Assembly: GCA_905116865.2 (NCBI GenBank)
Contig: CAJHNH020000493.1
Span: 200,409-264,408, forward strand
From: Candidula unifasciata
Lineage: Eukaryota; Mollusca; Gastropoda; Stylommatophora; Geomitridae
Direction: 5' to 3'
DNA: 64,000 bases
In this document: piece after piece, positions 25,301 through 31,300 of the stretch
Position numbering within the stretch: position 1 is the stretch's first letter
How the letters are laid out: each line of letters begins with the position of its first letter
Translations under genes and position numbers: made by a program
The notes under the pieces: generated by a model
The model's database searches: none
Told to the model about the DNA's origin: nothing
Seen by the model: the letters and a program-made list of their open reading frames with translations, nothing else

Positions 25301-28300
25301 GGCCATGCAAGGAGTCGGGGGATGTGTACATATGTTAATCAGGCCATTCAAAGAGTGTATGAGATAGAGAGAGAGACATATGGTACATATTACCAGATCC
25401 ATGCCGTGTATGTCAGAGAGGTGGGGATGTAAATTTGTTAACATGACCATGAAAGATATGTTATAGAGACGATTGGTTCATTTGTTAACAAGGCCATGAA
25501 AGGTATGTTAAAGAGAGAGATGGTACATTTGTTAAAAGGCAGTGAAGGGTATGTTATCTGAAACAAGGCCATGAAGGGTATGATAGATATAGTGAGAGAT
25601 GGTATTTTTGTTATGAAAGGAATGTTAAAGAGAATTTTTTAACAAGGCGATTTAGTAATGTTAGGCAAAGATATTGAATACATTTGTTAGTAAACAGGCC
25701 ATTTGTTTAATATCGGGTAAGTGTATTGTTATTAATATTGACAATAATTTGCAAAGCATTACAAGAGTGTAGTGTTTACGTTTTTAAAGATTATCTGCTT
25801 AAAGAAATTCTTTTATTGCGCAGGATAGTCTGATAAGTTCCCATACTTAGGAGAGATTAAGGTTGTTTTTTTTTAAAAAGCAATTTTATTTATGCACGCC
25901 ATTTTCTACTGAAGACACTATAGAAGCGTAGCTGGGGTTATGCATGTAATGACTTTGATGATATATTTTTTTGGTCTCTGTATGGAGATTTGTGGGACAC
26001 ACTGTATAGCTGTGTTTTTGTTGTCTTAAGTTTATCCTTTTGTACCATTAAAGTATTGAGGTCATTTTTATTATGGCCAAGGCAAAAACGCCATCCGTGA
26101 AGCAATGCATATTGTCTGAACTGGCACTGTTTCTCTTTGAATGGTCAGGTTACAACACCACCTGGTCAACAGAATGACCATTTTGTTCAGCTAGTGAGTG
26201 TGGCTTTGCTACATATGCAACAAAAAGCAAAACAGCAGATATAAAAAAAGAAAAAAACAGAATTTTGAGCTGATTGAAATGATGAGGCAAGTTTATCGGC
26301 ATGAGTGTTATTCAGATGGTGTTCAGTATTTAAAACTAGTGTGGGGAAGATTGAAGATGAAGCTAAACTGGTACAAGATGAAGCTAAACTGATTGCCAAA
26401 GTCAGAATGGACACACAAAGACTGATGTCTGATTGTGTGGTTGATGACCTGTTGGATTTGTTAAACGTTGATCCTGATAAACTTATCAGTTCAAAAACAC
26501 ACTGACAAAGTCAGAATGGACACACAAAGACTGATGTCTGATTGTGTGGTTGATGGCCTGTTGGATTTGATAAACTTTGATACTGTTTAACTTATCAGTT
26601 CCCAAAGTACTTTCCCAGTTTACAATATAATTTGTTTTCTGTTTGAAAATTGGTAGCTTCCTTCGAAGTCGGAGTACAGCTGCCCATGAGGCAGGGAAAT
26701 GAAAAACGGCTGTACACGCAAAAATCAGGTCCAGGTGAAAGCCAAAAGTCCAAGCGGACGATTAACCGGGACCTTCCACTGGAATTCACAGCCGGTGATC
26801 GATAAAAAAAAAAAAAAAAAAAAATGGTAGCTTACCAGACTACATTAATTTTATCAGATCATAAATTTTGCATATTTGGGTGGTGTGCTTTGCTTTGTGG
26901 GTGACATTTTTATCGGGACTATAATAAAATCAGTTATATTATTTAATTGTCGCTCTTGGGGAATATTACGTGATGATGCCCTAGTCTCTTCTACGGGGCA
27001 GCTCTCGTACTCGCTCTTAAATAGACACTGCAGTGTTCGAGATTTCAAACCTAGCCATTTCCTCTTATTGTTGTAGCCGCCGGCCAGATCCCGCAGGAAC
27101 CTGTTGTTAAGTTGCCCGTAGCTGTGGTTTCGGCTGACATTACCCAGGTTCCAGGCATAAGTTCCTTGAGTCGACAGGCTCGCCGTCTATATGTGGGCAA
27201 TATTCCCTTTGGGGTGACTGACGTGAGTGTTTGTTAGTTCATGCTTGTTTTCCCGGTGCCATGGCTGAAGCACTGTCAGGACTTTCCCTGCTAGCTAGTG
27301 AAATTGACAAATGATTTTAATGACAACAAATGCAGACAAATGTTAGTAATTTAATTTAGAATGACATTTAATTGTGCCGATGTACATGGTGTCTGTATTT
27401 TTTTATGCGCAGTTTTTTTAACCTTCTAATATGAAGCTAAACAAGTTCTGATATTTTGGCTGTCTAAAGAAATCTTTCATTGGTTATTTTATTACTAGAA
27501 AAACTATGAAGCTTGCAACAGTCTAAGCAGTGTTTACCCGTTTTAAATTTGAACAAAGAAGACACAAACAATAGATTGCACAATTTATTGCCTGGCATAT
27601 TTCACTGTATCTTGTCAGGTGCATACTTCAGTAACAACTACATAAATGAAGCAAATAAGTAAATCCTTTTAACTGAAGTTCAAATTCAGCAACAAACATA
27701 ACTGCCTGTTTTACCAGGGCAGCCGTAAAGACAGAACCATACTGTAGTATGCACCTGATGAGATACAGCAAAATATACCAGGCAATAAATTGTGCAATCT
27801 GTTTTTGTGTGTCTTCTTTGTTCAAATATGAAACTTCTGACAGTCTAAGTTGATTGTTGATTTCGTTAAATACATTTAGGATGACCCCTGAAAGTGTGCA
27901 GTAAAAAAGAAACAAATATTACATTTTGTAAAGAAAGCTTGTTTATACTACATTAAAGTAACTTGAAATTGTCTCTTGTGTTGGCATCATTAGCTTGGAC
28001 ATTGAGAATGCGCTTAGTAAATACAGGATACCTGGATCGGTTTCAGCTGCAAAAGATTTGTCAGCAGAACCTTTGAGCTGGTTATGATAACACTTGCTAG
28101 AGCCGACCATTCAGGCATAGGGTAGTAGCAAACTTCTAAATGTAAAATTGCCTATTAAAATCACAAACAGCCTTAAAATGCTGGGGTTGGTTCTGCAATA
28201 TCTTGTAAAGACCGCACAACTAACCATTATTATTTTGTAACATTAATGCATCCACATTATTTGAAGTTTAAAAACTGCACATGGATTTTTTAAACAGACA

Positions 28301-31300
28301 CCATGTATATAATCAAATGGTCTTATCTGTATATTCGAAACTGATTTCTTCAGTTGTGGCACCGGTTGATATTTCTGTATTTTGTGACCTAGGGAATACC
28401 TTTGATGTTTTTATCTCTTGTTTCCCCCTTCCAGCTTCCGGCCAGATTCCAACAGAGCCTTTGTTGAACGCCCCAGCTGTTGGGCCAGTTAGCACCGACG
28501 CCAGTCTCAATTTTGCTGGCAGCTCCCTCAGCCGTCAAGCCCGCAGGTTATATGTAGGGGGTATTCCGTTTGGAATGACCGACGTGAGTGCAAAATTTTA
28601 TACCTACCACTGAGGGAAACAACAGATAAAGCATTACTGTGTTCAGTATTCTGTAGATGTCATATTGTGTTTTCTGTTCAGAAGTGATGAATACAAAGAT
28701 TAAACAGCATTAAAAGTCTGTGGTTAAGCACCAGCAAGTCAAAAAATGTTACAATTTTAAAAGATGCATCTTTCCTGTAGCAAACTGTTGATGTGAGTCA
28801 TCTACTATTTCCCAGTCTTTAGGGTAGAAAAAAAGGGGTTGTGAGCTGAAATGCTATAGACAGAATCTCAAAATTCCATGGACAAAATAAAAGAAATAGT
28901 AGCATTCAAAAAGATCTGATCATCAAGAAAGATTGGCTGATGAACAGCCACTTGTCTTGAAAGCTGAAATATTTTGGTCACGTCAAACGCAACAGCACAT
29001 TGGGAGGAAATAATATCAGGAGGCTGGGGCAGACTTAGATATGAACGTGCACTTGGCAGGAGAGCTGGCGGGATCCCTGGTTTCTTTCAGGCTACCCGCA
29101 TGGTGAACACGACTGCGTATTGAATATTTGTAACTAAAGATTACTGTTGGTCTGCCCGGCACACCTGCCTCCTCAAGAAGTTATTGGTAGCTACAGAAAT
29201 ATTTTATACATGAATGATAACACCTTGGCTAGGTAGCAGATATTGAAAAAAAATGTTGCAGAGCAGAATTGTTTTCTTTCTTTGACATTTTTTCTTGTGC
29301 ATTCATTGAAAGATGTAAAATGTGCCTGATGTTTACACCCTTTGGCTGACACATCTAACTTCCCGGTTTTTTGACATTTTAATGCTCTTTATTCTTTTAT
29401 GTTAATTTTAAAATTGTGTTCTATTTTTGTTTTCATTTTTATTCTTATGTGGCCACAATACTGAACTCTTGTCATTTGTAAGCCCTTAGATAATAATTTA
29501 TGTGTATTTCATACTTTAGAATATTGTCAGAACAAAATATAAGTCCTTTATTGCCCGTCGTTACCACTTTTTAAGGGGTTGTGCGGGTGGGGTTCAGCAT
29601 GATGATTTAAGGCTGCGTTGCATGGATAGTGCAATCATGATAGACTGACCAGGATGGATATTTATTTATTTTGGGCCCAGAGTTAAAGAATTCATCCCAC
29701 ACACAAAAATGAAAGACTCCATCCCAAAGAAAATGAAAGACTCCATCCCAAAGAAAATGAAAGACTTCATCCCAAAGAAAATGAAAGACTCCATCCCAAA
29801 GAAAATGAAAGACTTCATCCCAAAGAAAATGAAAAACTTCATCCCAAAGAAAATGAAAAACTCCATCCCAAAGAAAATGAAAGACTCCATCCCAAAGAAA
29901 ATGAAAGACTTCATCCCAAAGAAAATGAAAGACTCCATCCCAAAGAAAATGAAAGACTCCATCCCAAAGAAAATGAAAGACTCCATCCCAAAGAAAATGA
30001 AAGACTCCATCCCAAAGAAAAATGCAGTAACTAATCACAAAATACAGAACTAAAATGTAACCACCTTCTGCATTTGTCAGAAACTAATACAGGCTGTATC
30101 CAGATAGCCCAGCTCCGACATCTACATTATGAGAGGTGATAAACAGGACAAAGTAAGAGGATTTCTCCCTCACAACCTGATGCAGTAAAAGCAGTCTACA
30201 CACCAAGAAACCAGCAGAGGTTTGCCAAACTGGTACTTTCAGCTGTGTAAAAGCACATTTAGATGTAGCCAGGTCAGGATTGGTCTGCAGGCACATTTAG
30301 ATGTAGCCAGGTCAGGATTGGTCTGCAGGCACATTTAATTGTCTTTTACAGAATGCTTGTTAGGGAGGTAGTGGGTCTATTATTTTTGTAGGTCACAGTT
30401 CAACACGCATATAGTCTGATTAGCAGGTGACCTAGATTGGCAGTTTCTTCTACTGATTCTGGGCATTACATTGTCAGGAGTCTTATGTTGAATGCCTAGG
30501 AGGGGACAGTCGATAAGACTTGCTTTCAGATTCAGCTGCGACTCGCTGCAGCCCACGGGAAGTATTCAAAACCCGGCGGTTTCCGGGGTTAACCCAGCCT
30601 CTAGGAGATGGGTACAAGAGCTGACATTCTGGGGTAAATGGAGGAACATCACTGTAGCTACAGAGTTGGGTGCGGACGGCGACACAGGCGGACAGTTTCT
30701 TATTAGCTGTCCGTACTGGTGGCAGAGCTCTTACAGTTTATAACCGTGTGCAGTGACGCTGGTTTACATCTCCTGACTTTGCGTTAACCTTTTTACCTAG
30801 GAGGATGGTGGTGGGTAATGTATAGTTTTAGTTTTTATAATCGTTTATCATTGGGTGTTTAAAATTGTTCTAAACATTGATTTGTATTAATTTTACCTGT
30901 TATGTTATCAATTTGTAGGAGGCCATGATGGACTTCTTCAACCACCAGATGCGTATTACAGGCCTGGCTCAGGCAGAAGGAAACCCTGTAATTGCCGTGC
31001 AGATAAATCTGGACAAGAATTTTGCTTTCCTTGAGGTAAGTCTCCGTTGTAAGGGTAGGCCTGGAATGTTTAGATGGGCCTTGAGCTGTGGGGGTAAATC
31101 TTGAATGTTTGGGACATGCCTTGAATTTCAGGACAAACCTTAAATGTTTGAGGCAAGTCTTGAATTGGGAGGTGATTTTGAATTGTGAAATTAGTCTTGA
31201 ATTCCATAATAATCCCCCAATGTTAAGGTAAGACCTGAATTCCAGGGTGACCCTTGAATGTTAAGGTGAGACCTGAATTCCAGGGTGACCCTTGAATGTT

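Follow-up and report, generated by a model that had tools for sequence, protein, structure and literature searches.

Two tandem, probably mutually exclusive copies of exon 4 in the U2AF2 gene of the heterobranch gastropod Candidula unifasciata

The U2AF2 locus and its duplicated exon 4

The window analysed here, a stretch of 64,000 nucleotides from Candidula unifasciata (contig CAJHNH020000493.1, positions 200,409 to 264,408, assembly GCA_905116865.2; all coordinates below are positions within this stretch), holds U2AF2, the gene for the splicing factor U2AF65, in which exon 4 is present as two tandem copies, 4a and 4b. The coding part of the gene extends over about 28 kb of the + strand, from 16273 to 44621, and comprises 12 exon positions, all on that strand: exon 1 with the start codon (16273-16300), exon 2 with the RS region (22925-23084), exon 3 with the ligand motif (24624-24727), the two copies of exon 4, exons 5 (30919-31035), 6 (31811-31949), 7 (32971-33050), 8 (37831-37953), 9 (38970-39056), 10 (41188-41314) and 11 (43113-43216), and exon 12 with the stop codon (44490-44621). 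Joined through 4b, these exons give a product identical, residue for residue, to the annotated C. unifasciata protein P0001. Solved U2AF65 chains match the query (386 residues) at residues 8-35, 62-264 and 284-386, which we take to be the U2AF ligand motif (ULM), the RRM1-RRM2 pair and the UHM, in that order. The first segment aligns with chains 1jmt_B and 4ru2_B, which are 28-29 residues long, and is encoded by exon 3, whose motif is presumably the ULM. The product therefore shows the domain order of U2AF65, with an RS region (from the RS exon), ULM, RRM1, RRM2 and UHM. When the RRM1 part (158 amino acids) was searched against the genome, five matches came back, every one an exon of this same gene, which rules out gene duplication as the source of the two versions.

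As a preliminary description of this DNA had proposed, two copies of exon 4, each with an AG acceptor and a GTGAGT donor, lie between exons 3 and 5: 4a at 27077-27222 (146 nt) and 4b at 28435-28583 (149 nt), on the same strand and 1212 nt apart. Both encode the linker, the N-terminal helix of RRM1 and the RNP2 strand, with Asn at position 155 (human numbering, as throughout) in 4a, from the AAT codon at 27199-27201, and Gly in 4b, the copy used in P0001, from the GGT codon at 28560-28562. Exon 3 ends in phase 1 and exon 5 begins in phase 0; each copy is entered in phase 1 and left in phase 0, so that either of them alone links the flanking exons in an open frame. Inclusion of both copies leads to a TGA at 28465-28467, codon 11 of 4b, and skipping of both leads to a TGA at 31032-31034, close to the end of exon 5, the two stops lying many exons ahead of the last junction. 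The computed frames and stops leave a productive mRNA with one of the two copies alone. This phase lock exists because exon 4 is asymmetric, being entered and left in different phases, and the same would hold for any copy of it that stays in frame; the lock need not have evolved for this purpose.

The last 21 codons of the two copies agree in 19 of 21 residues, with 6 codons identical, 13 synonymously different and 2 changing the residue. Within these 63 bases 18 differ, distributed 5, 1 and 12 over the first, second and third codon positions; when 18 changes were placed at random, two or fewer residue changes were seen in none of 20,000 trials (mean 11.0). This scarcity of residue changes, together with the recurrence of both types in other heterobranch proteins, bears out the earlier claim of protein-level selection on both exons. 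Over their whole length, 4a and 4b share 31 of 50 residues. Three properties of mutually exclusive tandem duplicated exons are thus found at this locus, namely homologous neighbours with agreeing phases and lengths, non-productive double inclusion and double skipping, and constraint on both copies, and the duplicated exon 4 is a real and ancient pair.

Relatives and age of the duplication

Three protein searches yielded 294 different relatives, these being the best 120 each of 183, 952 and 353 found, in a database clustered at 90% identity, where isoforms can be hidden, including in molluscs that seemingly have neither type. Among the 294 relatives listed, 16 carry the SSLSRQ form common to 4a and 4b. 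Thirteen of these are of the 4b type (P0001-P0012 and P0268, among them those of Candidula, Elysia chlorotica and E. marginata) and three of the 4a type (P0013, Aplysia californica isoform X1; P0015, Elysia crispata; P0016, Lymnaea stagnalis), and a short-query search with 4a fragments gave no additional 4a-type protein among the best 120 of 353. The 4a exon of Candidula matches Aplysia in 41 of 50 residues and both Elysia crispata and Lymnaea in 43 of 49, and its 4b exon shares 43-45 of 50 residues with the seven other 4b rows compared. The protein models of E. chlorotica (4b) and E. crispata (4a) are identical after exon 4 (302/302) and nearly so before it (89/92), and agree in 31 of 51 residues within it, as alternative exons would give. 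Three 4b proteins of 446-449 amino acids (P0003, P0006 and P0008) sit on contigs of 1498, 1550 and 1950 bp; since the coding part of the snail gene spans 28 kb, they look like spliced copies, which they must be if their genes share this intron layout. The sequences that bear on splicing to the common flanks are cDNA-like contigs for 4b and annotated proteins only for 4a.

In a tree of exon 4 built from 26 rows, sequences cluster by type, overriding the order of species, with support of 96/94 for the 4a group, 70/80 for the 4b group and 79/84 for the 14 other mollusc rows. A taxonomy look-up places Candidula (Heterobranchia, Euthyneura, Stylommatophora), E. chlorotica, Aplysia and Lymnaea in Heterobranchia, and Littorina among the caenogastropods. 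Neither form was found in the caenogastropod, limpet, abalone, bivalve, cephalopod and chiton protein rows examined. Both types have SSLS and TD where the other mollusc rows have SAIS, SAMS or STIS and TE, as expected if the duplication postdates the split from the other lineages. The exon 4 duplication probably arose in heterobranch gastropods.

Position 155 is readable in 291 of the 294 relatives listed, with Asn in 275 and Gly in 16. Thirteen of the Gly carriers are the 4b-type proteins; the other three (P0103, P0191 and P0291) are of another type and read RRLYIGGVP, with Gly at the place of Asn155. The change from Asn to Gly has probably arisen more than once.

Some further rows deserve mention. 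P0011 and P0012 are of the 4b type with more altered RRMs and are perhaps paralogues retained in some heterobranchs. The sequence AAGQIPQAMPI, with which exon 4 opens, occurs twice in the annotated protein P0121 (Batillaria attramentaria), which may point to another local duplication or to a model error. P0123, the annotated U2AF65 of the nematode Gongylonema pulchrum, lies on a 9-kb contig and has two almost identical copies of its exon 4 block together with the beginning of exon 5, probably through an assembly or model error.

Splice sites and the intron between the copies

Among the 11 acceptors compared (exons 3 to 12), that of 4b has the strongest polypyrimidine tract (0.85 pyrimidine, with a 12-nt run); that of 4a reaches 0.67, and the remaining ones lie between 0.59 and 0.67. 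Both copies end in the same donor, GAC|gtgagt, with a weak predicted pairing to U1 (-6.0), the corresponding values being -5.8 for exon 3 and -7.6 to -12.4 for exons 5 to 11. Several known ways of enforcing exclusion could be rejected. With the donor pattern used, no U12-type donor was found after exons 3 to 11, which excludes an incompatibility between minor and major spliceosomes (U12/U2); the intervening intron, at 1212 nt, is not short enough for a steric block; and the AG-free zones ahead of the 4a and 4b acceptors, of 20 and 40 nt, do not fit a distant-branch-point mechanism.

The two ends of this intron are predicted to pair with each other. Helix 1 joins 27253-27270 to 28348-28365 (18 bp, 3 G-U), helix 2 joins 27380-27396 to 28294-28310 (17 bp, 1 G-U), and helices 3 and 4, of 6 and 9 bp, join 27402-27417 to 28270-28285, all on the + strand; predicted mean pairing probabilities are 0.92 for helix 1 and 0.99 for helix 2. 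With full pairing, about 100 nt of the intron sequence that runs from the 4a donor to the 4b acceptor would stay outside the stem. The predicted energy of the paired ends is -90.0 kcal/mol, with z values of -6.9 and -5.8 in two shuffle runs. In the former, 15 flank pairs were tested and the next lowest values were -2.8 and -1.5; in the latter, 13 intron-end pairs were tested and the other 12 stood at -1.1 or above. One of 160 control pairs attained a z of -4, and it is located in the repeat array of exon 3 described below. The intron helices contain six G-U pairs and one C-A pair as non-Watson-Crick pairs, and the opposite strand pairs more weakly overall (-72.8). Judged from one genome, this suggests that the structure of the intron ends may have been kept for the RNA.

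The middle of the intron consists of repeats, a dispersed hairpin element in the loop (27540-27840, + strand) and another dispersed piece. The hairpin has three G-U, three C-A and two other non-Watson-Crick pairs in its main arms and gave at least 96 matches in the genome (40 of 5075 first-look candidates scored); being a dispersed element and not gene-specific, it was rejected as a specific regulator. In a genome search that skips very common words, the left flank (27223-27440) found no match but itself, and the idea that the pairing ends are those of a dispersed element was rejected on that basis.

A separate observation concerns exon 3. Its end and donor (24712-24735) form one member of a decayed repeat array at 24323-25664, which under a loose test (up to 6 changes per ~24 bases) has 12 direct copies, the exon's own included, that extend into intron 3, along with 5 inverted ones immediately upstream of the exon. 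Some copies retain a donor-like GGTATGT; the inverted copies could mask the exon 3 donor and the direct ones could serve as decoys. When the array was searched against the genome (40 of 1960 candidates scored), the matches beyond the locus belong to a different dispersed repeat at query positions of about 171-297.

Two probable forms of U2AF65

Judging from the encoded residues, the two U2AF65 forms would differ only in the stretch of about 28 residues that leads up to the RRM1 helix, ahead of residue 142, and at two places within RRM1, 155 (Asn/Gly) and 160 (Val/Met). The N-terminal helix itself is identical in sequence between 4a and 4b, the upstream differences ending just ahead of it, and R146, Q147, R149, R150 and Y152 are the same in both forms. 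In human U2AF65, R146 and Q147 in this helix are reported to contact the last nucleotides of the tract, and Asn155 is reported to bond K292 and D272, both in RRM2; these account for two of the three hydrogen-bond pairs that the paper names between the RRMs (PMC4786784). The proposal that the differing regions touch RNA consequently stands in part: the linker and the RNP2 residue do differ, the tract-touching R146 and Q147 are identical, and the RNP2 residue, which had been regarded as an RNA contact, is described in that source as a contact between the RRMs. In the snail RRM2, K292 is kept and D272 is replaced by Glu. A differing tract preference is possible and would act via the arrangement of RRM1 and RRM2 or via the linker. 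The AlphaFold2 models of P0016 and P0001 (pTM 0.28 each) both show a helix preceding RRM1 and a linker of low confidence, and at this quality they cannot judge the effect of residue 155. Single changes in the RRM1 N-terminal helix of U2AF2/UAF-1 are reported to shift the choice of 3' splice sites in worm and human cells (PMC12709185), which makes this stretch of the protein a plausible control point.

We consider it very likely that exon 4 was duplicated in tandem long ago and that its copies 4a and 4b are used singly, giving two U2AF65 proteins. Mutual exclusion would be enforced at least by the frame, the wrong combinations carrying early stops, and mRNAs with both exons or neither would presumably be destroyed by nonsense-mediated decay (NMD); the pairing of the intron ends may hinder the joining of 4a to 4b or bias the choice between them. 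At the protein level, Gly155 of the 4b form would be unable to make the side-chain bonds of Asn155 to RRM2, and the tract-bound state with RRM1 and RRM2 side by side would for that reason be less stable, so that the 4b form would be expected to choose 3' splice sites somewhat differently. Such a functional split between the two forms is what we infer from the residues concerned. A fuller scenario, in which the Asn155 form locks the RRMs on strong tracts and the Gly155 form reads other tracts, with the choice set by the paired intron and by feedback from U2AF65 and switching a genome-wide splicing programme, as an invention separate from vertebrate U2AF1, is speculative and, on present evidence, doubtful.

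Several observations weigh against two singly used exons making two proteins, or against parts of that account. The preliminary description had proposed looking for the same pair in related species; both types do recur in heterobranch proteins, and the two exons within one gene are seen directly in Candidula alone, being known elsewhere from proteins. The short-contig relatives are all of the 4b type, the three 4a proteins all come from genome annotations, and the annotated Candidula protein has 4b, the use of 4a in Candidula RNA being predicted from its sequence. Support for the 4b branch is modest, in a tree whose bootstrap had not settled, and Gly155 is tolerated in the non-4b relatives P0103, P0191 and P0291. 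As to the intron, 13 of the 160 controls have energies of -90 or lower, so that the raw value is not exceptional and the z value alone is unusual, and the inner helix is slightly better on the opposite strand (-16.2 vs -14.7).

One alternative is that the two isoforms are functionally equivalent and the pair persists since either exon serves. The shared R146 and Q147, the helix predicted ahead of RRM1 in both forms and the occurrence of Gly in RNP2 of three relatives of another type are all in its favour, but Gly155 is present in all 13 4b-type relatives listed and Asn in all three of the 4a type, and the linkers are type-specific; we regard equivalence as possible, if on balance unlikely. Rather unlikely, too, is a poison-exon autoregulation, in which the second copy would mainly yield non-productive mRNA limiting the level of U2AF65 and the protein difference would be secondary. 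The early stops met when both copies are included or both skipped, far ahead of the last junction by many exons, are what it predicts, and the weak U1 pairing of both donors and the unequal tracts (0.67 vs 0.85 pyrimidine) agree with it; a pure poison exon, however, need not preserve its peptide, whereas heterobranchs have conserved both peptides, and full-length proteins of each type occur. That 4a is a relic in Candidula, silent there and used in other heterobranchs, seems to us improbable. The weaker tract of the two belongs to 4a, and the annotated protein uses 4b although the gene build is described as drawing on the species' own RNA-seq (PMC8496239); the same build also referenced Elysia chlorotica and Aplysia, which makes its choice of 4b weak evidence, and a silent exon would have decayed, whereas 4a has kept its frame, its splice sites and 43 of 49 residues with Lymnaea. 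An assembly or haplotype artefact can be dismissed, in spite of a doubtful (CGG)n stretch at the window end, given that both types recur in other species and that the copies, with 31/50 protein identity and 13 of 19 same-residue codons differing in the conserved part, are too diverged for haplotypes.

The statement that no equivalent had been described in animals holds for U2AF2, for which no report of a mutually exclusive exon pair appeared among the best-ranked papers in searches of the open-access PMC literature, and fails for the partner subunit of the U2AF heterodimer. The main text of two surveys of human events names no U2AF gene, not even U2AF1 (PMC9741552, PMC5740500), and since U2AF1 is missing too their silence on U2AF2 says little. 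Exons Ab and 3 of vertebrate U2AF1 (U2AF35) are likewise tandem duplicates; their transcripts with both or neither are reported to carry stop codons and to be lowered by NMD, the isoforms differ in nucleotide preference, and each exon is preceded by inverted repeats (PMC5224494, PMC6821156). Unlike the snail pair, these are 67-nt exons with seven amino-acid changes, in the UHM of U2AF35 and in vertebrates. The snail U2AF2 pair is a separate duplication that works like the U2AF1 pair without being a member of it. It also resembles OGDH exons 4a/4b and other animal mutually exclusive exons in being an ancient tandem duplication in which one exon substitutes for the other; in OGDH, distant branch points are reported to enforce exclusion, restrict the intron and prevent transposon insertions (PMC7969005, PMC9741552), whereas the snail intron has short AG-free zones (20 and 40 nt) and dispersed repeats. 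Long-range pairing beside mutually exclusive exons recalls the docking-selector systems described for Dscam, 14-3-3zeta and ATE1 (PMC6071210, PMC11802352), but in the snail the one strong long-range pairing brings together the two borders of the intron that separates the copies, with no exon looped out, and the only candidate competitor, a pairing between the two flanks of 4b, is weak (z -2.8, one species). Finally, exon 4 encodes the same RRM1 N-terminal helix as the RNAH of U2AF2/UAF-1, which, unlike in the changes studied there (PMC12709185), is invariant between 4a and 4b.

With the snail pair, U2AF2, the partner gene of U2AF1, joins the genes with mutually exclusive tandem exons as a new case, and heterobranch gastropods probably make two U2AF65 proteins, one exon at a time, to judge by the exons and proteins at hand. 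This suggests that both U2AF subunits have been split by duplicated mutually exclusive exons, in different animal groups. U2AF65 is a general animal splicing factor, and how its two RRMs discriminate between tracts is an open question, for which one gene with two versions differing at an inter-RRM contact, recurring in several gastropod lineages, offers a ready-made comparison pair. If the two forms are made, the step affected would be where genes are spliced, since U2AF65 helps to decide it.

Two further repeats were noted in the window. By eye, a tandem repeat with a unit of ~24 nt, ATGAAAGACTCCATCCCAAAGAAA, occupies 29700-30020 in the intron between 4b and exon 5. Near the contig end, positions 61536-64000 hold about 2.4 kb of almost pure (CGG)n shading into GGA-rich sequence, which may be a genuine array or a sequencing or assembly artefact.

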